Shown here: piece after piece, positions 6,433 through 60,056 of the stretch
Layout: the number at the start of each line of letters is the position of its first letter
Position numbering within the stretch: position 1 is the stretch's first letter
Source: Janthinobacterium agaricidamnosum NBRC 102515 = DSM 9628
GTDB taxonomy: Bacteria > Pseudomonadota > Gammaproteobacteria > Burkholderiales > Burkholderiaceae_D
Assembly: GCF_000723165.1 (NCBI RefSeq)
Contig: NZ_HG322949.1
Span: 2,690,884 to 2,754,883 of the forward strand
DNA: 64,000 bases
Direction: 5' to 3'
Made by a program: the position numbers and the translations under genes
The notes under the pieces: model-generated
What the model saw: the letters and a program-made list of their open reading frames with translations, nothing else
Told to the model about the DNA's origin: nothing
Database searches by the model: none

Positions 6433-6441
6433 TGGACACGC

Positions 6442-7344: not shown

Positions 7345-7519
7345 GTCTGTTTCCATGGAAAGAATGGCGGGATGTATTTCTTATTTTCATATTGTAACGG
7401 CCCGGCTTGCCACGGGCCAGTCCATGGCAAGCGGCTGTGTGAATACCGTTGCTTTCGTATCATGGGAAACCGCTTGCACATGGTATATTCCTGCATCCCT
7501 CACATGGCATAACGATATC

Positions 7520-35726: not shown

Positions 35727-35756
35727 CCCCATATTAGCTGTACAGCTAATATGGGG
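35727..35756. repeat. perfect 30-bp palindrome
   Basis: CCCCATATTAGCTG, a central TA and CAGCTAATATGGGG make a perfect inverted repeat with 14-bp arms. It lies in a gene-poor stretch with no T run after it, so it is not a typical terminator. It may be a protein-binding site or part of an IS end. Confidence 0.8.
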
Positions 35757-36191
35757 TAAGTCCCTAATTTAGGTGTAATCCTGAGTCTAGCGGCGCCTCG
35801 AAGGAAAAATGAGATACATGCAGCTGGCCGATGCTAAATCAACGCGTTGCCGCTGTCTAGCATGCTTCTCCCGACTTCGACGACTCGACGTCTTCTCTTG
35901 CAGCACGTCCGTATGCTCGAAGTTGGATTTCGGGCTGGAAAGTTACGCTGCGAAAAAGCATTATAGATTTATCCCCCTATCAAGAGCAAAGAGCAAGCTC
36001 CATTTCCAACGGCCTCCCTGGAATGATTCATTCCACATTGCGACGTACTTCCCACACATCTTTCCGGCAGCGTCTCAGGCAAGAAAGTCACTAAAATTGT
36101 TGGCCTCTTTAAAGGCCAGAGAAAGCCGGGCTATACAGGATCATAAGACCGCGTGGCAGGATTTTCTGGTGACAGAAAATCTCACCATTGT

Positions 36192-36345
36192 TGTCGACGA
36201 ATAATAAAGTCTGACACAACGGTCCATTAAAAATCAATGACTTATCCCTTTAGCTTCGTACCGACGAGCGAAATAAAGTTTGACACAAAGGACGACTTTC
36301 ACGCTGGTGCCTAGATTCTTGCAATAATAAAGTTTGACACAAATG
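36192..36345 (+). repeat. left-end repeats of the 7.1-kb transposon (three dispersed sites)
   Basis: Copies of the motif AATAAAGTYTGACACAA lie at 36203-36219, 36272-36288 and 36326-36342, all in direct orientation. The first is joined to the terminal TGTCGACGA. They are likely transposase-binding sites, by analogy with the three dispersed TnsB sites of the Tn7 left end. Confidence 0.8.
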
Positions 36346-36460
36346 CGTCGAAGCTTGGTCGGCCATGGCTCCCTCTCGGCGCACCTCATAACTGCAACGC
36401 CAGCACGTTAAAGGTCTGTGCCGCAATGGGCCGGCCAACTGGCGCGCCTTCCGGAAGTCC

Positions 36461-37891
36461 TTATCTGCCGCAGGGTAATGGTGGGCGCCGAGTGCTCGTC
36501 CAGCATAATGTCTCAAACAGGCAAGCCTTACAGCAGACACGTTCATCAATTAGAGGGATTTGACAACGCGCTTCTCTGCGATCTTGGATCCCCTGATGCG
36601 CGCAGTGGTGTGGTTGTTCGTCAATGAAGAACGACCTGGGCTTGCCAGTGCGCGGCATGGAAATGGCTCCAGTTTCTCCCCCCTCTCCGTCTGCATGACA
36701 TTCCCTCCAACGATGGTAACGGCAAGCGACTTCGGGTGCCAGCTTTAGAAAGTGCGTTGCTGTCCCCGTGATTAACAACCAGTGGTCTAATGCTGTTGGA
36801 TGTCGCCGCACTAATAATTTTCTTCTGACGCCAACTTCGCCTGAGTTACTCGGATAGCCAGGGAACTCATCCAGGCTCGAGGTCGGTACGTCACGTCCGA
36901 GATACTCGTTGACTCGCCTGAGTAGAGCCTCGGCTGCATTTGCCACCTGGGTCAAGTGAGGCTCTAGCGCAAGGTTCATATCATCAACCGCTCGGTTGTA
37001 GGACAACTCCAGCGGTTCGGCGCCTTCGATAACAGTCAATAGCGCGCCGTCATTGCTCCGAAGCACAAGCGCCGGGTAAACCAGAATGCGCGGGCGAGGG
37101 GAAAACAGCTGCGATCCGCTAGCTTCATAGCTGAGATGAAGCGCATGGAAGCAATCGACGACGGCCTCGGGAGCGACGTAGTTGAGCACCTGCGCCGCGC
37201 GAATGCGAAACGGAAGTTCAACTCGAAGTGTTGCCGCGGAGAGTAGGCCATACAGCTCGCTTGCCCTCCTGACGAAGTCCACCTTGCGAAACACTTCGAT
37301 GTCGGTTGCGCTTGGCACCTCGCGACAAAACGTCGCGATGGGGCGCTTAAAAACGACTAACCACTGTCCACTTGTTAAGACCGCCCGCGGAAGCTCGTGT
37401 TCGTACCGGTCAAGAAGTCCACACACGTAGCCGCCGACCTGCTCAACATAGTCATGCCATTCCGCTGTCGCTGGCGACGTGGCCCGATCCCCCTCATTTC
37501 GCCAATGATTGATCGCTTGAGCAATGAGGGACGAGAATTCGTAATTGGTATTCGTTCCACGAGGCGTAATAAATGGCTTATCCCAGGCCTTTGCTTCAAT
37601 AAGAAGGACAGGCGTGTTCGTCTCGGACGCGACGCCTAAGTAGTCCATGCGCGTCACAGTGCCATTTCTCAGCCGGGCCTCTTCAGCCATATCACCGCCA
37701 AGCCCAAGCTTCCAGCCAAGCAGCTCCACAAACTCGTCGAGCAGATGTACGCGCGTCACATGCTCATTGGGGGCGCCAGCGGCCTCCCCAATGTAGGGCC
37801 CGGGCGCGTCGCTCTCGAGTGAGCGATCGAATCTCGTGAGCAACTCGGTGAGATCACGCTCGAAAGTTACTTCGTCGGTCTCGCGCGTCAC
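36461..37891 (-). CDS. PD-(D/E)xK nuclease-like protein with Cys/His-rich tail, partner of the NTPase
   Basis: This 476-aa protein starts at a GTG at 37891 that overlaps the upstream stop (GTGA), with GGAG eight bases before it, so translation is coupled to the NTPase. Residues about 45-105 resemble type I restriction HsdR N-termini: EHVTRVHLLDEFVELLGWKLG, then RMDYLGV (Asp) and LLIEAKAWDKP (Glu-x-Lys), the PD-(D/E)xK active-site pattern. The last 85 residues hold about nine Cys and several His (CRYH, HHCAHQ, RVCCKAC, LCW), which suggests a zinc-binding tail. It probably cuts or binds nucleic acid under control of the NTPase; defence is inferred. Confidence 0.8.
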   Translation of the reverse strand: MTRETDEVTFERDLTELLTRFDRSLESDAPGPYIGEAAGAPNEHVTRVHLLDEFVELLGWKLGLGGDMAEEARLRNGTVTRMDYLGVASETNTPVLLIEAKAWDKPFITPRGTNTNYEFSSLIAQAINHWRNEGDRATSPATAEWHDYVEQVGGYVCGLLDRYEHELPRAVLTSGQWLVVFKRPIATFCREVPSATDIEVFRKVDFVRRASELYGLLSAATLRVELPFRIRAAQVLNYVAPEAVVDCFHALHLSYEASGSQLFSPRPRILVYPALVLRSNDGALLTVIEGAEPLELSYNRAVDDMNLALEPHLTQVANAAEALLRRVNEYLGRDVPTSSLDEFPGYPSNSGEVGVRRKLLVRRHPTALDHWLLITGTATHFLKLAPEVACRYHRWRECHADGEGGETGAISMPRTGKPRSFFIDEQPHHCAHQGIQDRREARCQIPLIDERVCCKACLFETLCWTSTRRPPLPCGR

Positions 37892-40800
37892 TGGATGAGC
37901 TCCGGCAAGCGGTACAGCAGGCGCCGCGCCGCAGTCCATCCCGCGTCCATAAAGATCTCAAGACAATCAACTAGTGCCTTACGGCGTGTTTCGTTCTCGA
38001 AAATCTCCTTGTTATCCGCTAGGAAGGTACCTACCATTCGAACCATCAAATCGGCGCCAAGTGACTCGAAATGGTAGCCCCCTTCGACGCCACCAGAACG
38101 GATTGCGTGAACGGTGAGATCGAAGGCCTTCGCCGCGTCATAAGGGGCAAGAATTTCGATCAACTGCATAAGATAATAGATCGTGTGTGGTGACGCACGA
38201 TCACCGATGCGTTCAATTGTTTCCGCCGTCTCAGCGAGGAAGGCTGTGCAGGCAGCGTTGCTCAGCCCCGCAATTTCTCCCCCTGCTCTCCCAGTTGCGA
38301 AATACAGTTCCGAGCCTGCGGAATCCAAAAGATCCATACACGCGCGAAACGCGTCCACCTGTTCCGTTGGCACCTCGACCCGAGGGTCGTAATTGATAAG
38401 CACACCGTTCGCGGACAGTACGATTTGGTGCAACACTGCCTGCGCGCGGTGACGGACGCTGCTGTCGTCCGGTTCGCCGGGCCGAAGCCCAAGTGCGATG
38501 GCTCCTCTAAGCGTCGCGATGATCTTACGCAGCGGCTTGACATACGAAACAGGGTCTCCGATCCACCGAGACTGTAAAGCCACTGCAGCTTCACTCGAAT
38601 ACGTTATTGCCAAAATAGCGACAATGTCGGCCGTCAGCTCAACAATCCTGGCGTGGTTTACTGTACCGTCGAAGCGCTGCAGAGCAACAAGAAGTTGAGA
38701 CTCCGTTCGATCATGGTCGGCATGAAGTACTCTTCGCAAGAGATCGGCGAGATGGCTTAGTACGCCGAAGTTGGTCTCATTTCTGAACCGCGCATCTAGA
38801 CGCGTCCAAAACGACTCGCGGTCGATGTCCCAGATACGTATTAGGTGAGTCGCCGCTTGCAGGCGCGTCGCGGGGTGCTGATCACCGAGTAAGCGATCGA
38901 TATCGTCGCCCAGACGAGCGTATAGTTCCGGGCGCGATAAACATACGTCGAGTGCTGCCACTGCAGCCTCAACGCGCGGGGCAGGCGAGCCCCATGCTTG
39001 AGATTTCTCGAATTGAGCTTCGGTTTCATCGTCCACCGTCGGGTTTTCCGACTCAACGGCTATCCGCAGAAAGCTCAGGAAGCGGTCAGCGGGATCGCTC
39101 TCCTCATCATTGCAAACAAGTCGCTCACCCTCAGCGAGCAAGGCGCAGGCCTGACCTATGATGCCTTCGCCCATTCGCCGGAGGTCAATATTAAGTTCCT
39201 TTGGTAAGAGGCATTGCGCGACCGGCTCCAACACATCGAACACCCTTGATGTTTCTACCTCGTGTTTTGTCGGCTGCCCTGATTCGCCCAGGTAATCTCT
39301 CGCCGCTTCAATTGCCGTTATCATGGAAGCGTTGCACGGCAACGACCGGTCAAGATTCCGAATCCAGTCAAATGCGCCGCTCACAATTGAGCGAACATCG
39401 ACGCGGAAGATACGCTCATTATTTTGATGAGTTTCCTCGAGCCCGGAAGTGACATGCATTCGAGCCTCATTAGTAACGAGCTGATCAGCGCCTACCGCGT
39501 TGAAGAGCCGCCCTAGGAAGGCTTCTTTTGCCGCTACTGGGTCCATATAACCACTCGTGTCAAATGTAAGTGCCATCTGTTCGAGAGCTTGCTTTTCGAC
39601 AGGCGTGCGCTTCGAATATCCGGCGGCCACCACGTCGATCGCGTCTTTACGTGTGTCTGAGAGTGTCAGCCAAGATCCGCTTGCAGCGATAGGCCACAGC
39701 AGATCGACGAGACTGTCCTGTCGGCGCACGGCAGCAAGAAAGAGCCTTGCCCAAAAGATCGCCGACTCAATTCTTGAGAGCATATAATTCGCCACCGAGA
39801 CTGCAGCCGTCTCAGGCAGGGCTATGAGCGCTTTGGTGAACTTCGCAATTAGAGCTTCGCCGTCTTGACCATATTGGCTGTCGGGGTCGTGAGCCCAAAT
39901 ATGGCTTCCATCTGATTTGAGGCGCAATATTCTCCCGTCAATGCTTACTGGCACGACTTCGCCTTCGGCGCCTACGAGATTTGCATGCTCCCTAGAGATA
40001 TATGCATCGACCGCGCCGACCAGCGCATCGACTGCTTCCGCTGGATGACCAGATAGAAAGTCTGGGAAGTACTCCGACAGCGAGTACAGCGCCATGCTGT
40101 AGTCTTGCCCCGCGTTTGAAGTAAGGGAAAGGATTTTGCTCTCTCCCAGGCGAGTCACTACGTCGGAGTTGACGCTGCCAGCATAGGTATTGGAATAAAC
40201 CTGAGCTACAAACCCGGGTGCTACCTGCGCAAGCTTTTTGATCTCCCTGCATAACGCAGGTACGTCTTCCCACCGGTGAGTTGCAGCGCGCGTTGGATCG
40301 AAGACTTTGTCGAGTAGCGTAGTTGACTCGGTTGGGTCGGTCGAAAATGTGGCGACGACTAGTGGAATGAGAGATGCAGCACGCCCCCCGACCACTTCGC
40401 GCGTAATGGAGTCACGAAGCAAGGCACGCGCGGCCTTGCCAACCTCCACCGTTAGCTGCGGCGGTTTGGCGGCATTTACGAGCAAGTGAGTTAGGAATCG
40501 TAGAATGTGAGACACCCGCTCTACGTTATCCGCAATCGCCCCGGCCAAAGTGACCCAAGGGTTGAAGAAGACGTCTGAATCGTCCTCCAGTCGAACTGCC
40601 AGGGCTGCGACAACGTGACCGAGTGCTGTCAGAGCGCGCACATCTCCTGTCATCACGTGCTGGGCTAGAGACCTGGAATCCTCTGAAACCTCGGGGAGTT
40701 CCGCACTTAGTCGACCAGCCGCACTTCGCAGTACAGGATCCCCTTCCTTATCGCCGATGATTTGCTCGACAGCTGTCCAATAGCGACTGCGGTCTGTCTC

Positions 40801-42744
40801 GCTCGCCCACAACTCTTGCAGCAGGAATCCAAGTGCTGGAGCTAGCATTAACCCTTTCGCCTCGGCCTTCGGAAACCTCATTCGTCCAGAGGTAATGGCA
40901 TCTGGGTCTAGTAGCAGGCGAGAGGCAACGTAATCGAACAGTAGGTGGTGCCGAAATTGCACATAACGATCATTTTCGACTCGGATCAGCACGCCGCGGT
41001 GGCAAAGCTCGTCAAACGCATGCGAGTTCGTAGCACTTGCAGCCTGTGCTGTAGAACGGAGCATTCGGGCATCGAGCATAGTTTGTACGACTTGGCGCAG
41101 ACATGCTTCCGCTCCTACCCCAAGGGAAAGGACTCTGTAGTCCCAAAATAGGTGCAAGAGGTGTGCCTGACTGCCTAAACTCCGCAAGGTTTCCGCGACA
41201 ACTCCATTCTGAAGCAGCTCGTAGATGAGCCGCGTGTTGAAGGGAACCTCCGCTAGATGTTGCAGTTTCGTGGGTGCACCAGCCAGTGCGGTGGCCAGTT
41301 CCGGCGCCTGAACCAGTACTTGCTTGAATTCGTGCTCCGACCATGCAGGGACGAGCACGTGCCGCACGTTAGGAAAGGTCGGGTCACGGTATCCGGCATC
41401 GGGAGCCTGTCCGGGAAAAAGTTCACGAAACCTGATTCCCATTCGTAAATCGAAAGTTCTAATAGATGCGACTACCTTCCAACGCCCTTTAAGCGCTAAA
41501 ACGCGTTCAATCAGCGAGCGGAAGGCCCCTTCGCCCCGTCCTCCCCGAGTTGCATCAAGGGCATCGATGATCAGCCATCCGTCGGTCGGTCCATCCCAAG
41601 CTTCGATTACGTTGACAAGGCTGTTTTGGAGTCCAAGTTCAACACGCAGATCATCTAGGCTCTCGACGTTGTAGCGATCCACAGCGAGCTCAATCACATC
41701 ACCCTTTTGGCGAAGCTCTCTCGCTAGCGCATTGATAACCGCGCTCTTGCCAGCCCCAGGCTCGCCAATAAGCAATACCGACTGCTGCTCTGCCGCCAAT
41801 AGAACCGCGCCTTGGCACTCACGTGCAACTTTAATATTTCCTGCTGCCCAGTCGATAGACTCGTATCGTTCCAATTCTTGAGCGATCTCGCGAGAATGCT
41901 TTTGAAGAACGCCAATATCTTCGGTGAAGAGCGGCGGCGCAGCTAGTGACACATGCTCTTGCATCAACGCGAGTCGTAGCCGCCCCGAATCGGCACCACC
42001 TCGTTCAGCCATCCAACGACTACAAAGGTTGAGCAAAGCAGCTAAAAGCGCACGTGACTGACCGGGTGCTGCGACCATCTCCGCGATGGTTACCATTACC
42101 CTCGAGTCTGCACCATCGGGATCAAACGTCCAAACGACGACAAGGCGAGCAAGTTCGTTAACGTATTCTGGGTTCCAAGGCTCGGAAGTCGTTCCAGTCC
42201 ACGCCAGCTCGGCGCACTTTTCAAATACCCGAAATGCATGCTCTTGGTCTCGGGTCAAGGCAGCAGATCCAGGTTGAAGCCGTAACCGAAGGGCTGCTGG
42301 CAAATCGCTACGAACAGATGCCGGGGTGCCTGGGCCTACCGCGAGAACGAGCCGATCTCGGTCTGGGGCCAGCGGGCGGTTCCACGCTTGCGAGCCATCT
42401 CCGTCTCGGCATACGAGCCAATGTCGCACAAATTGTTGCACTGTCTTTGCTAACCCGCCATTTGGCGCGGCCGAAAGGTTGACAGAGGTCTTGGCCTGAA
42501 CGGCAACGAAACCGCCTACAGACGTTGCGACCAGAATATCGTCTACAGGCGCTTCGGACTCGAATCGCATCCAGAGCGGAGCAGTATTCCCTAGTCCCAG
42601 TACGGGGTCGATCGCGCGCGGGTTAATGATACCAAGGGCAAAATAGGCGCCGAGCTGCGCCTGAAAGCGCAGCCCGCCAGCGGCCGCTGCACCGCCGCTG
42701 GAAACGGTTGTTTCAGGATTGGGTGGGAATGATGAATTTACCAT
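37888..42744 (-). CDS. giant STAND-like NTPase with N-terminal nuclease-like domain (Avs-like)
   Basis: This 1618-aa protein starts at the ATG at 42744 or a GTG at 42759; neither has a clear ribosome-binding site. Residues about 15-110 carry GGLRFQAQLGAYFALG, PVDDI and VAVQAKTS, which fits a PD-(D/E)xK-type fold with a QxK variant. Residues about 325-460 hold an NTPase: Walker A GEPGAGKS, Walker B GWLIIDALDAT and a following VVASIRTFDLR. The remaining 1100 residues are helical and repeat-like, as in STAND sensors. The plan (effector, NTPase, long sensor) is that of Avs/STAND anti-phage proteins. It is the first gene of the transposon's cargo operon. Confidence 0.82.
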   Translation of the reverse strand: MVNSSFPPNPETTVSSGGAAAAGGLRFQAQLGAYFALGIINPRAIDPVLGLGNTAPLWMRFESEAPVDDILVATSVGGFVAVQAKTSVNLSAAPNGGLAKTVQQFVRHWLVCRDGDGSQAWNRPLAPDRDRLVLAVGPGTPASVRSDLPAALRLRLQPGSAALTRDQEHAFRVFEKCAELAWTGTTSEPWNPEYVNELARLVVVWTFDPDGADSRVMVTIAEMVAAPGQSRALLAALLNLCSRWMAERGGADSGRLRLALMQEHVSLAAPPLFTEDIGVLQKHSREIAQELERYESIDWAAGNIKVARECQGAVLLAAEQQSVLLIGEPGAGKSAVINALARELRQKGDVIELAVDRYNVESLDDLRVELGLQNSLVNVIEAWDGPTDGWLIIDALDATRGGRGEGAFRSLIERVLALKGRWKVVASIRTFDLRMGIRFRELFPGQAPDAGYRDPTFPNVRHVLVPAWSEHEFKQVLVQAPELATALAGAPTKLQHLAEVPFNTRLIYELLQNGVVAETLRSLGSQAHLLHLFWDYRVLSLGVGAEACLRQVVQTMLDARMLRSTAQAASATNSHAFDELCHRGVLIRVENDRYVQFRHHLLFDYVASRLLLDPDAITSGRMRFPKAEAKGLMLAPALGFLLQELWASETDRSRYWTAVEQIIGDKEGDPVLRSAAGRLSAELPEVSEDSRSLAQHVMTGDVRALTALGHVVAALAVRLEDDSDVFFNPWVTLAGAIADNVERVSHILRFLTHLLVNAAKPPQLTVEVGKAARALLRDSITREVVGGRAASLIPLVVATFSTDPTESTTLLDKVFDPTRAATHRWEDVPALCREIKKLAQVAPGFVAQVYSNTYAGSVNSDVVTRLGESKILSLTSNAGQDYSMALYSLSEYFPDFLSGHPAEAVDALVGAVDAYISREHANLVGAEGEVVPVSIDGRILRLKSDGSHIWAHDPDSQYGQDGEALIAKFTKALIALPETAAVSVANYMLSRIESAIFWARLFLAAVRRQDSLVDLLWPIAASGSWLTLSDTRKDAIDVVAAGYSKRTPVEKQALEQMALTFDTSGYMDPVAAKEAFLGRLFNAVGADQLVTNEARMHVTSGLEETHQNNERIFRVDVRSIVSGAFDWIRNLDRSLPCNASMITAIEAARDYLGESGQPTKHEVETSRVFDVLEPVAQCLLPKELNIDLRRMGEGIIGQACALLAEGERLVCNDEESDPADRFLSFLRIAVESENPTVDDETEAQFEKSQAWGSPAPRVEAAVAALDVCLSRPELYARLGDDIDRLLGDQHPATRLQAATHLIRIWDIDRESFWTRLDARFRNETNFGVLSHLADLLRRVLHADHDRTESQLLVALQRFDGTVNHARIVELTADIVAILAITYSSEAAVALQSRWIGDPVSYVKPLRKIIATLRGAIALGLRPGEPDDSSVRHRAQAVLHQIVLSANGVLINYDPRVEVPTEQVDAFRACMDLLDSAGSELYFATGRAGGEIAGLSNAACTAFLAETAETIERIGDRASPHTIYYLMQLIEILAPYDAAKAFDLTVHAIRSGGVEGGYHFESLGADLMVRMVGTFLADNKEIFENETRRKALVDCLEIFMDAGWTAARRLLYRLPELIQ

Positions 42745-42855
42745 GTTAGATTTTAGCACTTGCGTTAAATGCAGCCCGGTGCAGCTGATGTATCATGCTC
42801 TAATGCCATCAATAGCTTCCACTGTCAATCGTTCGCCCCGGGCTGTTTTCTCTCC

Positions 42856-43105
42856 TGCTATGACCGCATAAAGCGACGCACCAACGTCATCGGTATCTTC
42901 CCCAATGACCAGGCCATTATCCGACTCGTCGGCGCCATGATGCTCGAACAAAACGACGAGTGGTCGCTGCAGTCGCGATACATGCAGCTTAAAGGATTGC
43001 AATCCATGAGCGGAAATCAGTCTGCACGGCTCTCTGCCGTGATCAACTGACCAGGGACCCAGCCCCTTGAGAATCACATCTCATACACCACGTCTAGGGA
43101 CACCA
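42856..43105 (+). pseudogene. remnant of IS256-family transposase and IS end
   Basis: The reading frame CYDRIKRRTNVIGIFPND, then IIRLVGAMMLEQNDEW and QSRYMQLKG, is the C-terminal end of an IS256-type transposase, finishing at 43050. About 25 bp later, CATCTCATACACCACGTC and a following TAGGGACACC look like the terminal repeat of such an IS. The N-terminal three quarters are gone. It lies inside the 7.1-kb transposon, between the NTPase start and the right end. Confidence 0.75.
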
Positions 43106-43264
43106 TTACACAAATCGGAAATTATGCCCTGATGGGTCTAGGGCACTGGCAGGCCCAGAAGTACGCCTGCTGTGCCTGGGCAGACCTTATTCTTTGATTG
43201 ACATGAGGAAGGAAACACACCGCTTGAAAGCCGCTGCCAGGGCCAAAAGCCACGCCAGGCGGCC

Positions 43265-43311
43265 TTTGTCAGACTTTATTATTTATTGTCAGACTTTATT
43301 GTTTGTCCACA
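43265..43311 (-). repeat. right-end repeats of the 7.1-kb transposon (two packed sites)
   Basis: Read on the minus strand from the tip: TGTGGACAA, then ACAATAAAGTCTGACA and ATAATAAAGTCTGACA starting 20 bp apart. They are in inverse orientation to the left-end repeats. The tip is followed by the target duplication ATTGT at 43312-43316. Confidence 0.82.
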
Positions 43312-43373
43312 ATTGTTACTCATTTTTCATCAAAAAAACAAGTCTTAAATCCAGAATTCCTTTGTAATTTTAA

Positions 43374-43464: not shown

Positions 43465-44264
43465 ATGTCTAGGCCTGCCTTCTCCCTTACAGACGCGCAA
43501 GCCCGTGCGCTTTCCTTGCGAACGGCCGAGCTTCAGGCGCTCTTTCCACTTGACCCGCGCAATCACCGCTCTTTTGTGCGTGCCTTTCTGCGCGCCGTGC
43601 AGGAAATTACGGGCAATTTTTATATAGCCCTGCCATTTACCATCGCCTACTGAGCGCCTACGCGCAGGATCGGCGCCCTTCAACCAGTACGCTCGCTGCA
43701 GAGAAGCAGGCGCTGGCCAATGAAGTCGCTTCGATGCCCACCACCGTGGCTACTCTTGACGAGCGAGACGCGCCGCGGCCGCTCGACGATTCCGGATCCC
43801 TGCGAGCAGTGGTCGCAGAGGTGATCGAATCGACATTGTTGAGGGTTACTCGCGGTACCGGCCAGGCAGACCTGGCGCAGGTCAATTTCTACGCATCGAG
43901 ATTACGGGAAGCTGAGGTACAGGTTCGTGATCTGCGCGTCAGCTGCGCGCGGCTGACAGCTGAACTGAAAGTCGCGCACCAAGCTATACAGGCGCAAACG
44001 CAGGAAGCTGAAGGCTCCGCTCGAGTATTGAGTCAGCATCTGGTGACCGTGGTGAAACTGACCGGTGAAGTGTCCGACATACGTACCTTCGCATTGCAAT
44101 CGATCGATGAAGCACGAAGCGAAGCTCGGGCATGGAAGGAGCGCTACGCTGCGATCGAGGCGCAGCGCCAAAAGGATTTGTTGCTTCTGGAAACGTTTCG
44201 ACAGCAAGCATATCGTCATGGCGCATCTATTCCATCTTCTCTCTCCAAGGACACATTACCGTGA
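43465..44264 (+). pseudogene. KfrA/TnpT-like coiled-coil DNA-binding protein, frameshifted
   Basis: Two frames join into one protein: SRPAFSLTDAQARALSLRT through LRAVQEITGNFY in the first, then IYHRLLSAYAQDRRPSTSTL in the second, continuing through a long coiled coil to LSKDTLP. The break is at TTTTTATATAGCC near 43616-43628. Removing one TA restores a single frame (NFYSPAIYHRLL). The protein has an N-terminal helix-turn-helix-like region and a coiled coil, as in plasmid KfrA and the TnpT cointegrate-resolution proteins of Tn4651-like elements. An ATG at 43734 could still give a 176-aa coiled-coil product. Its stop overlaps the recombinase start (GTGA). Confidence 0.65.
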
Positions 44265-45517
44265 ACGAAATTCGTGTCTTGGATTCGGCCACATTATCAA
44301 CCGCCCTGCCCGTTTCTCATGGACTGGGACCAGTGGAAGACGACTGGGAAGCAGCCCAGGTATGGCTTCGCGCCATTGCCAGCCGCGGCCGGCGAAATTC
44401 CCCGGAGACTGTGGCGACCTACGGCTATCATCTGGCAAAACTGCGCTGGTTCTGTGAAAACGTGCACTTGGTACCACCCTCTCGCTGGGCTGCCCAGGAC
44501 GTCGAGACATTTTTCGCATTCCTCAACGATTTGCCTGAAAGCGCCTTGTGCGCGCAGGATGCTGAAACTTTGCGATACGCACGGTCTGACGAAGACGGGC
44601 ATACGCCCTTCCGCACGCGACCGTCTAAGAGTAGCCGTTCTGACATCCAGCGATGTATCCATGCGATGTTTCGGGCCTGGCGAGAGATGGGCTACATTCA
44701 AATCAATCCAATGGGATTGCATGGTGCTGGCTCGGTCAGAAAAGTGAATACCAATCGTGCTGTAGCTCCCGACCTGTATGACATCGTGCTCGAAGCAATG
44801 GATGCCGAGGAAAAGCCCACCTTTAGCCGGCGCCAGGCGTATGCCCGCGACCGATTCATCTTTATTGCACTGAGGGAGTTGGGTCTTCGCACGAGCGAGC
44901 TGGTTAAGGCCACGATGTCTGCCTTTTATCGTCTATCCGATCCGCAGGATGGAAAAACCTATTGGGTCATGGTGGTTCGTGAAGAAACTGCAAAGGGCCA
45001 AAAAGAACGAAAGATACCAGTGCCCCGCTCGGTGCTTGAGGCACTCGAAATCTATCGCGAAGCCTTTGGGATGGCGGCACACCCTGATACAGCCGAGAAC
45101 AGCGCATTATTACTGTCAACGCGAACGAATAGGACCGCTGTGCTATCAGGCGGTAGCGCAATCAAAGACGTGCAGTCACGGCGCTATTTTCAGGCTTGGC
45201 TACCTGTAACAACGCGACATGGCCTATACCACATTGTGAAGAAACGCCTTGGTGAGGCCGCAGCTTTTCTGGAATCTGTTGGCGACATTGAACGGTCAAT
45301 TCTATTACGTCAAGTATCTCCACATTGGCTGAGACATACCTTTGCGAAGGCAGCGTTACTGACTGGCCAAGACATTCGACATGTAGCCTCCTTGCTAGGA
45401 CATAGTGACTTGACTACCACGATGGTATATACAGAACAAGATGCCTTGGATTTGATACGGTCAACTAACCGAATAGTGCCCGGCTTACTGGCAACCGATA
45501 TGTCCTCCGTCGTTTAG
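44261..45517 (+). CDS. tyrosine recombinase (TnpS/phage-integrase type)
   Basis: This 418-aa site-specific recombinase starts at a GTG at 44261 that overlaps the previous stop codon by four bases, with AAGGA upstream. The N-terminal core-binding (SAM-like) domain is about 20-130 (WLRAIASRGRRNSPETVATYGYHL). In the catalytic domain, Arg lies in LRELGLRTSELV near 210, His-x-x-Arg in SPHWLRHTF near 355, and the second His and nucleophile Tyr in LLGHSDLTTTMVYTE near 390. All key residues are present, so it should be active. Pairing with a KfrA/TnpT-like gene suggests a resolution module of a Tn4651-like transposon or plasmid; no transposase is nearby. Confidence 0.88.
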   Translation: MNEIRVLDSATLSTALPVSHGLGPVEDDWEAAQVWLRAIASRGRRNSPETVATYGYHLAKLRWFCENVHLVPPSRWAAQDVETFFAFLNDLPESALCAQDAETLRYARSDEDGHTPFRTRPSKSSRSDIQRCIHAMFRAWREMGYIQINPMGLHGAGSVRKVNTNRAVAPDLYDIVLEAMDAEEKPTFSRRQAYARDRFIFIALRELGLRTSELVKATMSAFYRLSDPQDGKTYWVMVVREETAKGQKERKIPVPRSVLEALEIYREAFGMAAHPDTAENSALLLSTRTNRTAVLSGGSAIKDVQSRRYFQAWLPVTTRHGLYHIVKKRLGEAAAFLESVGDIERSILLRQVSPHWLRHTFAKAALLTGQDIRHVASLLGHSDLTTTMVYTEQDALDLIRSTNRIVPGLLATDMSSVV

Positions 45518-48597: not shown

Positions 48598-50391
48598 TCA
48601 ATTAACAGCCTTAATCCAGTCAAAGCACTTTTTGAATTCAGGCATTTTCAAGTCTAACTCAGCTGCGTCCAACTCGCGTAATTCCGCTTCCTGAGCAATT
48701 ATCGCGTCCTCCCCTTTCTGATCATACCGGGTTACCTGCTCAATGCAGCCGTTTGGCCACATCCAAATTCCCAACGTCTTCAGTTCATCATGAACACTCG
48801 TTGCGATGCCCTTACCGACGTCATCTTGTGCCCACAGCGCCCATGTGTCTGCTGCTTGCCAGTTTGATTTTTTATCTTTTGCTGGCAGTCCATTATCGCC
48901 CAAATGGAACTTGTGAACTTCCTGCATTCGTTTCAATGCATCCTTCGTGTTTTGCACATCTGCGCGATCCTTTGGCAACAGCGAGGCATTGCCTTTACGA
49001 GCATCAACAAAGGCAAAATCCAAGTCAACAATGGCACATGCCTTGATTCCCATCGCGGCTAAAACTGGCATCGCTTTGGGAATATCCGAGCAAGCCCCCA
49101 TTGAGACAAATGTGATTTGATGCAGTTCAGGAGCCACGCCAAATAGTCGTTCATAGGCAAGCGGCAGTAGACGCCGATCAGTTTTACCTTCGCATAAAAC
49201 TACTCGTTCGGAAAAATATATTTCAGCTACATTGCCAAGCTCAAAGAGTGTTCTTGACTGAGACTCAGCATCATCTAACGCTGATTGCACTGCAGCCCGG
49301 AGTGGAATGCGAGCCGTTGTCCCTTGATCTTTCGTCTTGCCAACAATTACGGTGTCTGATGCGTTTTCTCTGCTTAGCATCAACGGTGAATGTGTGGAAA
49401 AGACAACTTGAAAACCTGCCTTCGACAGCTCAAAAAGCGCTTGCCGTAACCTGCGGACCCCTTGCGGATGCAAGTACAGTTCGGGTTCGTCAATTAAAAG
49501 TACGCGGCGGGCTGATGTAGCGGGATCCGCCGTTTTAACCCTTGCCAAGTAGCGAATCAATGCCATTTGAATGGCCCTTTGCGCCCCCGTCCCGATTTGA
49601 TCGAATTTACGGCGGTCCCCAGTGATTTTATCTGTCACATGAAGGTCTCCAGCCTTAAAGAACTCTTTGATATCAACAATTTGGAGATCTAAATCGAGAG
49701 CTAAACCAGGAAAAAATGGCTCCAGAGCAGTAGTAACGCCGGTGTCGAAATCCTTCAGATGCTCTGATCTGTTGGCCCCCTTTGCAGTGAGAATTCCTCT
49801 CACGGTTGTCATAGCTTCGTTCAACGCAACATGAGTCTTGAGAATCGGGGCCATGATCTCATCAAGTAATGCCTTAATTGTCGTGCCAGCCTTTGCCTTA
49901 CCTAAATCCTCTCCAATGTCATCCATCGCTTCAATATGCAGTGGCTCTGGAAGCAATGCCGACACCGCTTGAGGCAAGCCAGTAGGATAGTCTCGCCAAT
50001 TCACAGGCACGCCAGTGCCTGTGTAACTGTCGAAGTCATAAACCTCAGCTTTCCACGCCTTAGCGCCCGTGCCTGTGGCACTTGCCCGAATCCAAAGGCG
50101 GCCGCCATTACAGTACGGTGATATGGCTGTCCGGTGCTTCTGTTCGGGTAAAAGGTCGATAATTGCCTGGCTAATTCCATCAATCCGAGCACACACTTCT
50201 ACAGGCTGACTCGCATCCAAGAAATCGGTTTCAGCTAGCGCTCCTGGCTTCAACACCCACTTTATCGCATCTAGTATGCTTGACTTGCCAGTGTTGTTTT
50301 GGCCTACCAAGGGCGTAAATCCTTCAAGTGGCAGCTCTACTTCCTTGCAAGCGCGGTAGTTTTTAATTCGTATGTAGCTCAGGGAATGCAT
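48598..50391 (-). CDS. OLD-family ATP-dependent nuclease (AAA ATPase plus TOPRIM)
   Basis: This 597-aa protein has an SMC/RecF-like ATPase with Walker A GQNNTGKSS near residues 30-38, Walker B VLLIDEPELYLHP, and STHSPLML. A TOPRIM nuclease domain follows, with VLCEGKTDRRLL near 397 and IVDLDFAF (DxD) near 457. I chose the start at 50391 (MHSLSYIRIKNYRAC) because AAGGAAT precedes it and it is the standard N-terminus. OLD nucleases work in anti-phage defence. No UvrD-like GajB gene is next to it, so it is not a complete Gabija system. It follows the HEPN gene by about 110 bp on the same strand. Confidence 0.88.
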   Translation of the reverse strand: MHSLSYIRIKNYRACKEVELPLEGFTPLVGQNNTGKSSILDAIKWVLKPGALAETDFLDASQPVEVCARIDGISQAIIDLLPEQKHRTAISPYCNGGRLWIRASATGTGAKAWKAEVYDFDSYTGTGVPVNWRDYPTGLPQAVSALLPEPLHIEAMDDIGEDLGKAKAGTTIKALLDEIMAPILKTHVALNEAMTTVRGILTAKGANRSEHLKDFDTGVTTALEPFFPGLALDLDLQIVDIKEFFKAGDLHVTDKITGDRRKFDQIGTGAQRAIQMALIRYLARVKTADPATSARRVLLIDEPELYLHPQGVRRLRQALFELSKAGFQVVFSTHSPLMLSRENASDTVIVGKTKDQGTTARIPLRAAVQSALDDAESQSRTLFELGNVAEIYFSERVVLCEGKTDRRLLPLAYERLFGVAPELHQITFVSMGACSDIPKAMPVLAAMGIKACAIVDLDFAFVDARKGNASLLPKDRADVQNTKDALKRMQEVHKFHLGDNGLPAKDKKSNWQAADTWALWAQDDVGKGIATSVHDELKTLGIWMWPNGCIEQVTRYDQKGEDAIIAQEAELRELDAAELDLKMPEFKKCFDWIKAVN

Positions 50392-50498
50392 GTTATTCCT
50401 TATCGTGAAAGATACTTGCATTATTGACAATTTGCTGCCGAACATAATAACTGACAATAATCACAAAGCACAACAAAAAGCTACAGACAGACAAAGAA

Positions 50499-52669: not shown

Positions 52670-52981
52670 ATGACACGCTCAAAAACCTACACACCGGAGC
52701 TTCGGGAAGAAGCGGTAAAACTGGTCCTGACACAAGGCCTGACGCTGGAAGACGCCGCGTTGCGCCTGACCATTCCAAAGGGCACGCTGGCCAACTGGGT
52801 GAGTGCGGCAAAGCGCGGTACGTCGCCTAAAGTGGCTCCTGGCAGCCGCTCCGTGCCTGAGCTGGAAGCCGAGGTAAGCAAGCTGCGCAAAGAGCTCGCC
52901 GAGGCACGCATGGAGCGCGATATCGTAAAAAAAGCGGCAGCGTACTTTGCGCGGGAGTCGCTGCCAGGTACGCGGTCATGA
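52670..52981 (+). CDS. IS3 transposase OrfA
   Basis: This 103-aa helix-turn-helix protein (TRSKTYTPELREEAVKLVL) ends in a leucine-zipper-like helix (VPELEAEVSKLRKELAEARM). A run of seven A followed by G at 52927-52934 is the usual place for the -1 frameshift that makes the OrfAB transposase. Its stop overlaps the ATG of orfB (52978-52981). GGAG precedes the start. Confidence 0.92.
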   Translation: MTRSKTYTPELREEAVKLVLTQGLTLEDAALRLTIPKGTLANWVSAAKRGTSPKVAPGSRSVPELEAEVSKLRKELAEARMERDIVKKAAAYFARESLPGTRS

Positions 52982-53553
52982 AGACCTTGCGACTCGAATT
53001 TCCCGTCACCGTCATGTGCCGCGTCTTTAGCGTCTCGCGCAGCGGTTTCTACGCTTGGGCGAACGGCAAACCGTCGCAGCGGGCGCAGGACGACGCGCGC
53101 CTGAAGGTCGCCATCGAGGCCGTGCACGCGCAGAGCCGGCAGACCTACGGCCCGTTGCGCATGCAGCCGGAACTGACGGCGCAGGGCTTTCCGGCCGGCC
53201 GTGATCGTATCGTCCGTCTGCGTCGCGAGCTCGCCTTACGCTGCAAGCAAAAGCGCAAGTTCAAGGCCACTACGAACTCGAACCATGACTTGCCGGTGGC
53301 CGACAACCTGCTCAATCAGACCTTTGCACCAACCCGGCCGAACGAAGCCTGGGTGACCGACATCACCTATGTAGCCACCGGCGAGGGCTGGCTTTACCTG
53401 GCCGGCATCAAGGACGTGTTCACCTGCGAGCTGGTGGGCTATGCGATGGACGAGCGCATGACGCAAACGCTGACGGCAACGGCCCTGTGGAAGGCTGTGC
53501 GCAACAAACGTCCTGCGCCGGGCCTGATTCACCACTCCGACCGCGGCAGTCAG

Positions 53554-55004
53554 GGCGGATTCAACCGGTCGTCGCAACACTACATTGTAGAACAGATTTT
53601 AGGTGCTCGTTCAGTGCTTCGGCCGGTGTCTTCCAGCCAAGCGTTTTCCGTGGCCTGGAATTGAGCGCGTTGGCAACGGCCTGCAGCTCTCGTGAGCTCC
53701 AACGAGACAGATCTGTCCCCTTTGGAAAGTACTGCCGTAGGAGGCCGTTCGTATTTTCGTTCGTGCCGCGCTGCCATGGACTGTGTGGGTCGGCAAAGAA
53801 CACCTGCACCCCGGACTCGATCGTGAAGCGGGCGTGATCGGATAGTTCCTTACCACGATCCCAAGTCAATGACTGCCACAACTGGGCAGGCAATTTAGTC
53901 ACCGTTTTCTTGAGCGCGTTGGTCATCGTAATAGCTCCATAGCCAGCCAGCGCGGGGCCATTCTTTGTTCTGGGAATCACCCCGTAGCCTTCCTCACGAG
54001 GTAGGTGAACAAGCATAGTGAATCGGCTTGACCGCTCAACCAGCGTCCCAATCGCGGACCTGTTCAGTCCGATGATCAGGTCCCCCTCCCAATGGCCCGG
54101 GACAGCACGATCTTGCGCTTCTGCAGGCCGGTTAGAGATCATCACATCCTCGTTGACGTGTGCCCATGCCTTCGCTTGCGCCCTTGCCCTGGGCACGCGC
54201 AACGCCCGTCCGCTACGCAGACAGCTAACCAGTTCACGCTTGAGAGCCCCTCGTCCCTGAATGTAGAGTGCTTGATAAATGGCTTCGTGAGAAATGCGCA
54301 TAGATTCGTCATATGGGAAGTCGGTCTGCAGTCGGTTCGAAATTTGTTCGGGTGACCAAGCATTGACCCATTTGCGGTCACCGCGATGCGGCTTGTTTCT
54401 TCCTATGAACGGTGCTTGCACCGGTCCAGAAACGTGACGGCCCCTAGCGTCGCGAACCATGCCCTCCAACCTATCTTGCACGTACTGGCGCAACCGTGGA
54501 TTAGTCGCGAGTTTGGATGGCTTGGGTCTTTTAGCAACCAGCTCCGCTTTCCACTGCGCAACCGAAGCGCGATACTCAAGTCGGCCGCCACGAGTTGCAG
54601 CGTTACGTGTTAGTTCTCGCGAAACCGTTGATGGGTTGCGTCCAATACGGCGCGCAATCTCTCGTATCCCGACACCTTGGCACGAAAGCAGTCCAATTTC
54701 CTCTCGCTCCGCGAACGACAAATACCGCCCGGATATCGGGCTTAACATGGAAAGTGGCATGCCGCCATTATGACGGAACCAGCGAGTCCCCACTGCCTGC
54801 GACACGTCCACTGCCTCTGCAGCCTTCTCAGTTGTAATGCCTGTTGCAATTTGCTTCCAGAATTGCCGCTCAGTTTCCCGTCGATGCGAAGGTGCACCTG
54901 GCGAACGCATCGCTCCTCGCCCCGTCAACTTATACATCCACCCCGCTGGTCGTCCCATAAACACCTCCTCGAATAAGGTGTTGCGACGACCGGTTGAATC
55001 CGCC
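53554..55004. mobile_element. IS30-family insertion sequence inside IS3
   Basis: This 1451-bp element has perfect inverted ends GGCGGATTCAACCGGTCG (the match runs 27 bp). The 3-bp direct repeat CAG flanks it at 53551-53553 and 55005-55007. It carries one transposase gene on the minus strand. It must have arrived after the IS3 copy it interrupts. Confidence 0.93.
53561..54958 (-). CDS. IS30-family transposase
   Basis: This 465-aa DDE transposase starts at 54958 after GAGGAGG (the GTG two codons upstream overlaps that site). It has an N-terminal HTH region (LSFAEREEIGLLSCQGVGIREIARRIGRNPSTVSREL) and an rve/DDE domain with GHWEGDLIIG, TWDRGKEL and the downstream NENTNGLLRQYFPKGTD, all standard for IS30. 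The gene appears intact and its last codons run into the terminal inverted repeat. It is the only complete transposase in this nested cluster besides IS66. Confidence 0.95.
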   Translation of the reverse strand: MGRPAGWMYKLTGRGAMRSPGAPSHRRETERQFWKQIATGITTEKAAEAVDVSQAVGTRWFRHNGGMPLSMLSPISGRYLSFAEREEIGLLSCQGVGIREIARRIGRNPSTVSRELTRNAATRGGRLEYRASVAQWKAELVAKRPKPSKLATNPRLRQYVQDRLEGMVRDARGRHVSGPVQAPFIGRNKPHRGDRKWVNAWSPEQISNRLQTDFPYDESMRISHEAIYQALYIQGRGALKRELVSCLRSGRALRVPRARAQAKAWAHVNEDVMISNRPAEAQDRAVPGHWEGDLIIGLNRSAIGTLVERSSRFTMLVHLPREEGYGVIPRTKNGPALAGYGAITMTNALKKTVTKLPAQLWQSLTWDRGKELSDHARFTIESGVQVFFADPHSPWQRGTNENTNGLLRQYFPKGTDLSRWSSRELQAVANALNSRPRKTLGWKTPAEALNEHLKSVLQCSVATTG

Positions 55005-55867
55005 CAGTACTGCGCTCATGACTATCAAAAACTGGTGAAGCAGTTCGGCATGCAGCCGTCCATGTCGCGCCGGGGAAACTGCTATGACAACGCGCCCATG
55101 GAGAGCTTCTGGGGTAGCCTGAAAAACGAGCTGGTGCACCATCAACGTTACGCCACCCGGGCCGATGCGAAAGCTGCAATACAGGAATACATCGAAAGCT
55201 TTTACAACCGCCAGCGGCGCCACTCGCGCCTCGGCAATGTTCCGCCCGCGTTGTTCGCTGAAAAATTCAGCAAACAGCCACGGGCGGCTTGAAACAAGAG
55301 TGTCCGCTATTGACAGTACACCTCATCAATCACGTACTCTCCAGCATCGACCCACGCATGATAGTGGTCTGGGTCGCTACCTACGTCATCACCGTCCAGC
55401 TTCCCAAAACTGAGAACATCCCGTGACACATCGTCGAGGAGGAGAAATGCAGCGCCGAACATTGGTCTGGCGGCGATCTGATAGTGCGTAAATAAAATGG
55501 TCGCACCCATCAAGGCAAAAAACTGGCAGGCATGAGCAGTAGCGGCGTCCTCGCTGTCGAGGACGGTTTTGATGGATTGGGTGATGCGTTGGTAGTCTGC
55601 TATTGGGAGCATGGGGGTGTACTTATCTCTTATGCTTGAAATAGGATTTTTTGCACTCGGCACGCGAAAAGCATACTTAGTCACCAACTCTAGACGCCGC
55701 TGAGCCGGCGGCCATTTTGTCGAGGTAGGTTCGCAATTGCTCGCCAATTTGCTCTTGTACCTGTAATTTCGCGTTGGCTTGAGCGTAAGCGTAAAGCCAG
55801 CGCCGTCTTGAACCCGGCAATGAATGAGAAGATGATGGCATCGCACCGCTGGGAAGCGGCGTGTTGT

Positions 55868-57412
55868 TTAAGCCGAAGGGAGCTGTGCGGCGCAGTTCCA
55901 GGGCAGGAAGTCGTCGACCCGGTTGACCGGATGATCGGCGATGTGGGCCAGCACATGGCGCAGCCAGGCCTCGGGGTCAACACCGTTGAGTTTGGCCGTG
56001 CCGATCAGCGAGTAGATGGCGGCGGCACGCTCGCCACCGCTGTCGGCACCGGCAAACAGGTAGTTGCGCCGGCCGATGGCAACACCACGCAGCGCCCGTT
56101 CAGCGGCCGAGTTGTCGATCTCGATGATGCCGTTGTCGCAGTAGCGCAGCAGCGCCGGCCACAGATTGAGCGCGTACTGGATCGCGGCCGCTGTGTCCGA
56201 CTTGCGCGACAGCTTTTCAAGCGTGGCGCGTAGCCAGTTGCCGAAGTCGTCGAGCAATGGTCGTGATCGTTGCTCGCGCACCTGCTGTCGTTCATGCGGC
56301 GGTCTGCCGCGTATCTCGGCCTCGATCACATACAGCTCGGCGATCCGGTGCAGGGCCTCGGTCGTGATGGCCGATGGCCTGGCTGCATGCAGATCGTGGA
56401 ACTTGCGGCGCGCATGTGCCCAGCACGCCGCTTCCTGGATGGTGCCATCGATATAGAGTGCATTGAAACCGGCATACGCATCGGCCTGCAGCACGCCCTT
56501 GAAGGTGGCCAAGTGAGTTTGCGGGTGGATGCCTTTGCGGCCCGGCGTGTAGGCGAACCAGACGGCCGCCGGCGTGGTGTCGCCGGCGGCGCTGTCATCG
56601 CGCACGTAGGTCCATAGCCGTGCCGTCCTGGTCTTGCCGTTGCCCGGCTCCAGCATCGGGATCGGGGTGTCGTCGGCGTGCAGCTTGGCGCCAGCGAGCA
56701 CATGGCGCCGGATCGCGTCGACCAGCGGGCGCAACAAGGCGCTGGCGGCACCCACCCAGTTCGCCAGCAGCGCTCGCTCCAGTTCAACGCCTTCGCGGGC
56801 ATAGATCACCGACTGCCGGTACAGCGGCAGATGGTCGGCAAACTTGGCCACCAGCACATGTGCCAGCAAGCCCGGCCCGGCGATGCCGCGTGCAATCGGT
56901 CGGCTTGGCGCGGGCGCCTGCACAATGGTGTCGCAGCACTTGCAGGCCAGTTTCGGACGCACATGACGGATCACGCGGAAGCTGCCTGGTATCCACTCCA
57001 GTTGCTCGGCGACGTCCTCACCCAAGGGACGCAAGCTACCGCTACAGGCGGGGCAAGCTTCGCCTGGCGGCGGGTACATTTTCTCGTCTCGCGGCAAGTG
57101 TTCTGGCAAGGGACGGCGCACCGATTGCTTGCGCGGCGCCTGGTCGGCCGCTGGCATCTCGCGCGCCGCTTCGCCCTCGTCAGCCTGCAGGTCTTCCAGC
57201 TGCAATTCCAGTTGCTCGATCTGGTGGTCGAGCTTCTCCGACTTGCGGCCGAACTGCATGCGCCGCAGTTTGGCGATCTGCAGCTTGAGATGCTCGATCT
57301 CGACATCGCGCGTGTTGAGCTGCTCAGTCAAGCCGGCGACGACCTGCTGCTGCGCGAGCAGCAGTGCTTTCAAGGCATCGATATCGTTGGGCAGGTCGGC
57401 GAGGTTGAGCAT
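55868..57412 (-). CDS. tnpC: IS66 transposase TnpC
   Basis: This 514-aa protein has an N-terminal leucine-zipper helix ([19 protein letters not shown]), an IS66 zinc-finger segment with CPAC ... CKCC, and a DDE domain with [20 protein letters not shown] and [20 protein letters not shown] short IS66 C-terminal domain follows. It is the full length for the family. It is transcribed after tnpA and tnpB. Confidence 0.95.
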
Positions 57413-58163: not shown

Positions 58164-58504
58164 CAAAAAAGTGACGGAAACTACTTTGGGGTATGTGGAC
58201 TTTTAAAGATAGACGGCGGTGGGAAGACGCTTACGCTTGAGCGAGCAAAAGCTCAAGTTCACGAACCTGTTCCTTCACCGGCGCCATCTGGTCGTTCGCC
58301 TCTCTCAACTGCCCGGCGAGCACTTCCACTTCGGCAATTTTACTGGCAAGTTGCCGCTCTGTGTCGGAAGCGTTTACCTGCAGCGATTGCAGCATGTCGA
58401 TTTTCTGCTCCAGCTTGCGATTTTGCGTGATTTGCTCGTACAGGCCCTGTTTTGTATGGGACAGTTCCGCCACGCGAGTGAACATGGCCGGGTTCCCAGC
58501 CACG

Positions 58505-58645
58505 TGTGGACAAACAATAAAGTTTGACAGAAGCACTCCTGTGAGGAGATCAATTACAACACGCTCCGTATGCAAATAAAGTTCGACACAAACGCCAGCT
58601 GAAGCACCTGCAACCCTCGATTGCAACAATAAAGTTTGACACAAC
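58505..58645 (+). repeat. left-end repeats of the PIN mini-transposon (three dispersed sites)
   Basis: Copies of ACAATAAAGTTTGACACAA (some with changes) lie at 58513-58529, 58573-58590 and 58625-58643, in direct orientation and about 52-61 bp apart. The first is joined to the tip TGTGGACAA. Confidence 0.82.
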
Positions 58646-58674
58646 CTACGGTTTTCGCTGGACCTACGCAACTT

Positions 58675-59841
58675 CTATCTGCAATCGTCGTCATAATTGT
58701 CGGGATTATTCATCCAGTCAGGTTCAATATCGTTGAAGTACATGCCCTGTGTTACGGGCAGCAATTCGACACTATCTAGTGTCAACCCATCTGCATCGAT
58801 CTGAACCGTCACTAGCGCCTCAAATCTAATATCAACGTCTTCATGGATCGTGGTGCTGCCCATAGCAACATAGTCGCGATCAATGCTGTCAAATTTTTCG
58901 AAGCTAAAGTGTGCGTCAATTTGCAAGAAAGCGGTTCCGCTAACTTTAATCACTGCCTGCCCGTCGTCATGGGATATCGTATCTAGCGTGGCGCCGGTTG
59001 CATCGGGAATGTCGAGGCTGATATCGTCAACTGTTAGCTCAACGCCATCCTCTTCCACTGAGAACTGGGAATTGGCTTCGATACGAAATTCAAACTTGTC
59101 TACCTGATCTCGGATAGCTTCGAGTACGGCTACATGAAGCTGGATAGCGTCTCCGGTCACAAACAGTGTAGCCAGGCGTACTGCAGGCTCACGGGCCACT
59201 CCCAACCCTTGAACGGTCGAGAGCGCATCGGCGAGATCGTCGATAACAACGAGACGCTTTGATTGCGCACCGTATCGATGCCAATCTTTGTCATGCGCGA
59301 CAACCAGAATTTGCGTGTTGCGGTCCTCCGCCCAGCCTTCGAGGGTCGCCAGCGCTACTGCATCCGGGAATTCTTGTTTCTTCTCGCCGGTTTCTGCGAA
59401 CGGTGGCTCACCTGCCTCGTATCGCCGCATAATCTCACCTATGGAAGCAAATTCGTCCTCGTGAAGAATCTCCGCGCCTACACGCTGCGCCCAGTCGTCA
59501 AAGCGCTTGCGGGCCCGCGTATCATCATCGGACACTGCGAGATTGATTAGCTCGGTCAATGCTTCCTGATGCTTCGAACTCAACGCTCGATGCTTGGCGG
59601 TATGGGCCAGCGCAATGCGCAAAGACTTTGTTGCGTCCGTTGCATTTTTTGCGAGATGCCGTTTCACCTCGTTAGCCACGGTGTTCGTTACGACAAGTTC
59701 AAAATCGCTTTCACGAAATTGCTCCAGCTGTGCCAGCAGCCCGCTTTCCAGCGCGAGGCTGTTACGTTCGAAGATGGATGTATCGATTGTCAACGCGGTG
59801 ATCTCACCGGCGAGGATCTGATTATTGATTTTCTCGTCCAT
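58675..59841 (-). CDS. PIN-domain protein (DUF4935-like)
   Basis: This 388-aa protein has a PIN nuclease fold in residues about 10-200: ALTIDTSIFE (first Asp), TNTVANEVKRHL, FPDAVALATLEGWAED (acidic centre), then ILVVAHDKDWHRYG (last acidic residue). This layout fits the DUF4935 type. The C-terminal half is acidic and strand-rich, and not recognised. I took the start at 59841; in-frame ATGs at 59910 and a further upstream codon would run into the transposon end repeats. As sole cargo of a mobile element it is likely a defence or toxin RNase with no visible antitoxin. Confidence 0.78.
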   Translation of the reverse strand: MDEKINNQILAGEITALTIDTSIFERNSLALESGLLAQLEQFRESDFELVVTNTVANEVKRHLAKNATDATKSLRIALAHTAKHRALSSKHQEALTELINLAVSDDDTRARKRFDDWAQRVGAEILHEDEFASIGEIMRRYEAGEPPFAETGEKKQEFPDAVALATLEGWAEDRNTQILVVAHDKDWHRYGAQSKRLVVIDDLADALSTVQGLGVAREPAVRLATLFVTGDAIQLHVAVLEAIRDQVDKFEFRIEANSQFSVEEDGVELTVDDISLDIPDATGATLDTISHDDGQAVIKVSGTAFLQIDAHFSFEKFDSIDRDYVAMGSTTIHEDVDIRFEALVTVQIDADGLTLDSVELLPVTQGMYFNDIEPDWMNNPDNYDDDCR

Positions 59842-59925
59842 GAACGTTTGTGTATTTATCCTATCGTTTTTCGAGTACTTATGAATGGCAGTAGAAGTTC
59901 CTATGAGCATGTCCGTCCCAGGCTC

Positions 59926-59993
59926 TTGTGTCAAACATTATTGTTTTGTGTCAAACTTTATTGTTTTATGTTCAACTTTATTGTTCATCCACA
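59926..59993 (-). repeat. right-end repeats of the PIN mini-transposon (three packed sites)
   Basis: Read on the minus strand from the tip TGTGGATGA: ACAATAAAGTTGAACAT, ACAATAAAGTTTGACACAA and ACAATAATGTTTGACACAA, starting exactly 20 bp apart. They are in inverse orientation to the left repeats. Confidence 0.85.
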
Positions 59994-60056
59994 CCACGTA
60001 CTTGATGATCCAATTCTTTTGAGTAGCCACGGTATTTCCCCATGTATTGTGAACCG

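Follow-up and report, generated by a model that had tools for sequence, protein, structure and literature searches.

How a transposon that encodes no transposase came to occupy its present site is the question raised by a 7120-bp element, here called E1, at positions 36192-43311 of the window, that is, of the whole stretch of 64,000 nucleotides of Janthinobacterium agaricidamnosum that was analysed. The preliminary description of this DNA had placed the element at these coordinates, with TGT...ACA tips, a match at 22 of the 25 positions of the 25-bp terminal repeats and a 5-bp duplication, ATTGT, and every one of these points was re-read as described; the left copy of ATTGT lies at 36187..36191 and the right copy at 43312..43316. 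It had also noted that tnsA, tnsB and tnsC are missing, and indeed no tns gene was found inside E1.

The left end (36192..36365, plus strand) consists of the 25-bp tip and three dispersed repeats that start at 36200, 36269 and 36323, with spacings of 69 and 54. The right end (42871..43311, plus strand) contains a repeat array at 43177..43304 on the minus strand, with copies at 43266 and 43286 that have the 20-bp period already recognised, to which we add a degenerate copy at 43177. Spaced repeats on the left and close-set repeats on the right make up the asymmetric plan of Tn7-type ends, where such repeats are predicted to bind the transposase. The 14-base core of the repeats, AATAAAGTYTGACA, was found 10 times in the window with at most one mismatch, compared with a mean of 0.03 over 30 first-order Markov windows, and the repeats are therefore above chance. 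Across the complete 5.95-Mb genome, the same core had 12 matches, 10 of them in two clusters, whereas the reversed-pattern control had one; the second cluster belongs to another element, E2. The earlier proposal that Tn7 ends have not only this plan but also a similar core was borne out when the ACAATAAAGTCT core was compared with a Tn7 end of NZ_CP093243.1: this end, beside tnsA on a Moellerella plasmid, begins TGTGGGCGGACAATAAAGTCTTAAACTG. A relic of an IS256-type transposase, common to E1 and the complete element of genome G016 described below, lies inside the right end at about 42868-43048. Left of E1, at 35727-35756 of the window, there is a perfect 30-bp palindrome with relatives in G014 and G034.

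E1 carries two genes on the minus strand that overlap by 52 bp and encode adjacent, full-length proteins, both matching PADLOC models of the candidate system PDC-M54 over nearly the whole length. PDC-M54B (36461..37939, 492 aa) matches at 2.1e-180, and PDC-M54A (37888..42759, 1623 aa) matches with E=0. The latter is a STAND/AAA-type NTPase with a Walker A motif at residue 332 and a weak match to Avs4 over the P-loop region (6e-6); comparison with solved structures gave three weak matches only. In M54B, D99 and E115-A-K117 are invariant across five homologues, in an order that we take to be the one expected of a PD-(D/E)XK nuclease, which suggests that M54B is such an enzyme. Fold prediction from five sequences reached a mean pLDDT of 52, and Foldseek returned no match at E<=0.001. 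In the NTPase-nuclease pair proposed previously, the nuclease label is thus drawn from the D...E-A-K motif of the five homologues and gained no support from the fold. As predicted from the sequences, the pair is a candidate anti-phage module in which M54A would act as an Avs-like STAND NTPase sensor and M54B as a nuclease effector against phage or other foreign DNA. A literature search for PDC-M54 together with PADLOC found no paper. M54B was found at eight loci in the genome_contigs collection, four of them 45-50% identical and located in named genomes; unlike E1, these four relatives have no end-repeat cluster nearby in the stretches fetched.

The second element, E2 (58505..59993, 1489 bp), is likewise transposase-less and is flanked by copies of CCACG at 58500..58504 and 59994..59998. 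Its left repeats start at 58513, 58572 and 58625, and its right repeats at 59926, 59946 and 59966. The cargo is a PIN_12 domain protein (2e-26) without a PADLOC match, which comprises 388 aa when read from an internal ATG (58675..59841, minus strand); the listed 419-aa open reading frame begins inside the right repeats. E1 and E2 are 15 kb apart in one genome and have ends of different subtypes; neither adjoins glmS, and the absence of tns genes from both means that neither is an autonomous Tn7-type transposon. The region around them also encodes a tyrosine recombinase (44132-45517 of the window), an OLD-family ATPase-TOPRIM protein (48598-50457; PADLOC Old, 2.1e-211) and, between E1 and E2, IS-type transposase reading frames of the rve/HTH types and IS66 (52978-57412). 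Elsewhere in the same genome, near 4,090,550 (G000:C1, about 4090526-4090613), there is a degenerate left end of the E2 type, with two repeats 54 bp apart and about 77% identity over 90 bp, which judging by these repeats is a probable remnant of a third element.

A complete relative of E1 was detected in G016, a genome of the same genus as that of the window. This element is 25,604 bp long, is flanked by the duplication GCAGA and encodes tnsABCD. Alignment with E1 shows 98.9% identity over 174 bp of the left end, where homology begins at the tip, and 97.5% over 434 bp of the right end, where the 47 bases nearest the tip agree without exception; the G016 right end has one repeat more than that of E1. 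Read from the right end, the proteins match Tn7 structures as TnsA (8.9e-26), TnsB (7.5e-81), TnsC (8.3e-69) and TnsD (3.8e-14); for TnsB, no Pfam family was hit at E<=0.001, and its name derives from the structure-entry match to Tn7 TnsB. A gene matching glucosamine-6-phosphate synthase, GlmS, has its stop codon 24 bp away from the right tip, and the cargo includes LmuA, LmuB and LmuC as called by PADLOC together with a type I restriction protein. Because the right segment, including the IS256-type relic, is common to both elements, the sequences suggest descent of E1 from a G016-like element; the relic in this segment is annotated as an IS256-family transposase in several plasmid records. 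Beside the G016 tnsD, and in divergent orientation to it, a second protein of the TniQ family is encoded (L029:9896-11008), and proteins of this type also occur in the complete elements of G025, G014 and Pseudomonas koreensis p2, where they are possibly extra target selectors. The expectation that a full element with the same ends would be present elsewhere in the genome of the window held for relatives, G016 among them, and failed for that genome itself.

The transposase complement of this genome bears on whether something other than a G016-type element could have moved E1 and E2. The TnsA profile PF08722 had no match there at E<=0.001, compared with matches in 10 of 24 end-bearing genomes, nine of them over the cut-off. 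A search for relatives of the G016 TnsB was likewise negative in this genome, whereas 18 of the 40 genus genomes have one (E<=0.001). The TnsE profile PF18623 matched none of the 24 genomes, its controls being equally silent. At the one Mu-transpos_C match of the genome (G000:C1, within 518000-537000), we detected a divergent tns-like operon on the minus strand (L034, reading frames at 5945-10697). A resident mover of this kind has in its favour the proteins encoded by the operon: one that is TnsA-like (E=0.0018 with PF08722, which falls short of the cut-off), a TnsB resembling that of Tn6677 (3.1e-43, against 9.7e-5 for Tn7 TnsB), a TniB-type ATPase and TniQ. However, its TnsB is only 24% identical to that of G016 over 232 aa, and the four ACACATAAGYTTGCAC-like repeats beside the operon (L034:4288-4424) differ from the E1 and E2 ends at 6 or more of 16 ungapped positions, whereas the G016 ends are nearly letter-identical to those of E1. 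Given the divergent TnsB and the poorly matching repeats, we consider this operon, as opposed to an element of the G016 type, a very unlikely source of the movement of E1 and E2.

Paired ends with 5-bp duplications, which the preliminary description had proposed to look for in related genomes, were found. A pattern of two right-end repeats is present in 9 of 40 genus genomes (two or fewer mismatches) and in 22 of 392 family genomes (at most one mismatch) belonging to 4 of 44 genera, the genome of the window being included in both counts; the reversed pattern had no match in either the 40 or the 392 genomes. Complete elements, with both ends, an exact duplication and tns genes, were identified not only in G016 but also in G056 (26,923 bp, GCTGC), G025 (18,392 bp, ATAGC) and, in another genus, G266 (32,797 bp, ACTGT). 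As TnsA-D of G266 and G016 share 95-98% identity, this Tn7-type family, judged by its proteins, moves between genera. The elements of G017 (2083 bp, TCTGG, with reading frames that by eye resemble an IS3-type transposase) and, at glmS, of G350 (8355 bp, GCATT) likewise have two ends and an exact duplication, but no tns genes were found inside them. Also at glmS, the G380 element (12.4 kb) carries IetA and IetS homologues, and its duplication fits only if the right tip is placed one base further out. G036 has an end-only remnant of 271 bp with no matching duplication.

The right ends were tabulated as 30 clusters with 20-bp spacing and a best repeat of at most one mismatch, in the stretches fetched before the later clusters, which are left out; three of the 30 are hand-chosen plasmid loci. 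In 15 of the 27 chromosomal right ends, the outermost repeat lies 38-51 bp from the end of the glmS match. The tnsABCD genes start within 10 kb inward in 3 of these 27, of which 4 had less than 10 kb of inward sequence, and in a fourth right end, nested in the G266 element, the same tns genes follow at 25-31 kb. TnsA only was found at the right ends of G023 and G104; that of G023 is a 98%-identical fragment, with TnsB, TnsC and TnsD absent from the stretch read. On one contig, G002:C23 (L200 and L026), two right ends of the same orientation are separated by about 17 kb, with glmS next to the first, possibly reflecting serial insertions at attTn7. Over about 140 bp, a left end observed at G027:C2:275784-275923 (L193) shows 90% identity to its E1 counterpart, and no right-type cluster follows in the next 19 kb. 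In the viral_contigs collection, the end pattern had no exact match, and comparison of the E1 right end with phages gave one partial match.

The family extends to plasmids. On a P. koreensis plasmid, ends of the same type adjoin tnsABCD together with a second TniQ-like gene. Two Stenotrophomonas rhizophila plasmid records, one of which carries no annotation, contain a 399-bp element that has both types of end and the duplication AATCA and in which no gene is annotated. A copy of this element, 99.5% identical over 393 bp and truncated by 10 bp at its right tip, was found between other flanks on a conjugative plasmid of P. aeruginosa. This small element belongs to a divergent branch of the E1-type end family, and its right tip equals the tip of a P. 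oryzihabitans plasmid element that encodes TnsA and a partial TnsB. The occurrence of gene-less copies at two sites implies that the transposase acted in trans or that recombination took place. A 76%-identical relative of the 399-bp element is present twice, with 595 bp between the copies, on a P. amygdali plasmid (L203, NZ_CP127046.1). The E1-type family thus spans genomes of the Burkholderiales type as well as plasmids of Pseudomonas and Stenotrophomonas.

A site in a related genome with a single ATTGT and no insertion, as the preliminary description anticipated for E1, was not found. The left flank of E1 gave partial matches only within the genus. In G020, both flanks are present with no 7-kb element, 1.1 kb of unrelated sequence lies between them, and the exact junction is unreadable. 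When the flanks of E2 are joined, a short GTG-start reading frame runs across one CCACG; we rejected this frame as proof of an empty site, since similarity to its homologues is confined to the part downstream of the join. The genus comparisons yielded neither an exact empty site for E1 or E2 nor, in the 40 genomes, a second copy of either.

In our view, E1 and E2 are likely to be naturally occurring, non-autonomous elements of the Tn7 type, mobilised by the transposase of complete relatives. The TnsA and TnsB proteins of such a relative, of the G016 type in the case of E1, would bind the repeats and excise the element, and TnsC would join them for insertion at the present site; the complete element would then have been lost from this lineage or would never have settled in it. 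Since neither E1 nor E2 is flanked by glmS, insertion presumably bypassed the TnsD/glmS route and may have been guided by the second TniQ-type selector of the complete relatives, or may have been an untargeted event. A published survey counts 1,048 loci with tandem tniQ/tnsD genes and reports TnsE from a limited set of groups (PMC10293859). The earlier claim of movement in trans is supported by the complete G016 element, with its near-identical ends and a different duplication (GCAGA vs ATTGT); for E1 itself such movement would follow from these ends, and recurrence at two sites was seen for the 399-bp relative only. Weighing against this account are the failure to find an exact empty site, or a second E1 or E2 in the 40 genus genomes, the truncated tip of the P. 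aeruginosa copy and the divergent branch to which the 399-bp element belongs, and the tns-like operon resident in the genome of the window.

The main rival to movement in trans is loss in place, whereby a complete Tn7-like element carrying PDC-M54 inserted itself at ATTGT, was never moved in trans and had its tnsABCD genes removed afterwards by an internal deletion. The duplication would be kept equally well under this scenario, right ends without inward tns genes are frequent, and decayed relatives are known, as in G023. However, a single genome harbours two compact elements devoid of tns genes whose ends are of different subtypes, gene-less 399-bp copies have evidently spread, and the tns-less element of G350 is at glmS whereas E1 and E2 are elsewhere; we accordingly regard loss in place as rather improbable. 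An origin outside the Tn7 type altogether has even less to commend it. Tn402-type elements have inverted ends of about 25 bp and 5-bp duplications, which would fit an assignment of E1 to the Tn402/Tn5053 group, but the E1 ends match those of tnsABCD elements with TnsA and TnsD; the excess of core matches over expectation and the silence of the reversed right-end controls similarly argue against a chance or regulatory repeat array. We give hardly any credence to either of these two readings.

The design of E1 and E2, with the ends kept and a transposase that would be supplied in trans, is common to Tn402-derived class 1 integrons without tni, MITEs and engineered mini-Tn7. Compared with E1, the integrons belong to another transposase family, MITEs have no cargo and mini-Tn7 is man-made. 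With Tn7 and the Tn7-like transposons (tnsABCD, attTn7), E1 shares the TGT...ACA tips, the 5-bp duplication, the asymmetric repeat arrays and the core; unlike these elements, which reside at glmS, E1 and E2 have no TnsA-D and are not beside this gene. Tn7-like elements bearing defence cargo are already known, and E1 resembles them in uniting a Tn7-type element with a defence candidate (PMC8649781). As described in the accessible part of that survey, its elements were collected by an HMM search for core Tn7 proteins, and E1 and E2, which encode none, would escape a search of this style. A literature search found no natural transposase-less, miniature or trans-mobilised Tn7-type element by title or the start of the abstract, most subscription papers being outside its scope. 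The accessible parts of PMC8649781, PMC10293859, PMC3401170, PMC10761935 and PMC7043111 treat non-autonomous transposons in general or as tools, rather than natural ones of the Tn7 type. What is new here is a natural non-autonomous passenger of the Tn7 family with one candidate defence module, and not defence cargo of Tn7-like elements as such.

More tentatively, the Tn7-type transposases of these Burkholderiales-type genomes and Pseudomonas and Stenotrophomonas plasmids might sustain a standing population of natural mini-Tn7 passengers that land at attTn7 and in mobile islands, with the complete transposons serving as helpers. The passengers could conceivably range in size from gene-less 0.4-kb copies to 1.5-12-kb cassettes with a single module (PDC-M54, the PIN gene or IetAS), and it is a speculative further step that landing in islands perhaps involves the second TniQ-type selector of the complete relatives. 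The end pattern offers a simple tool to search for such passengers, and E1 together with the G016 tnsABCD set provides a ready pair of substrate and transposase with which movement in trans could be tested. If this picture is correct, passengers of this kind would form a modular shuttle, carrying immune systems singly and invisible to transposase-first surveys: because Tn7-like cargo is catalogued from the core transposition genes, tns-less passengers inevitably escape such catalogues. Should they be common, then for some of the orphan-looking defence genes of genomic islands the mover would be defined, the boundaries would be exact and the source could be predicted.
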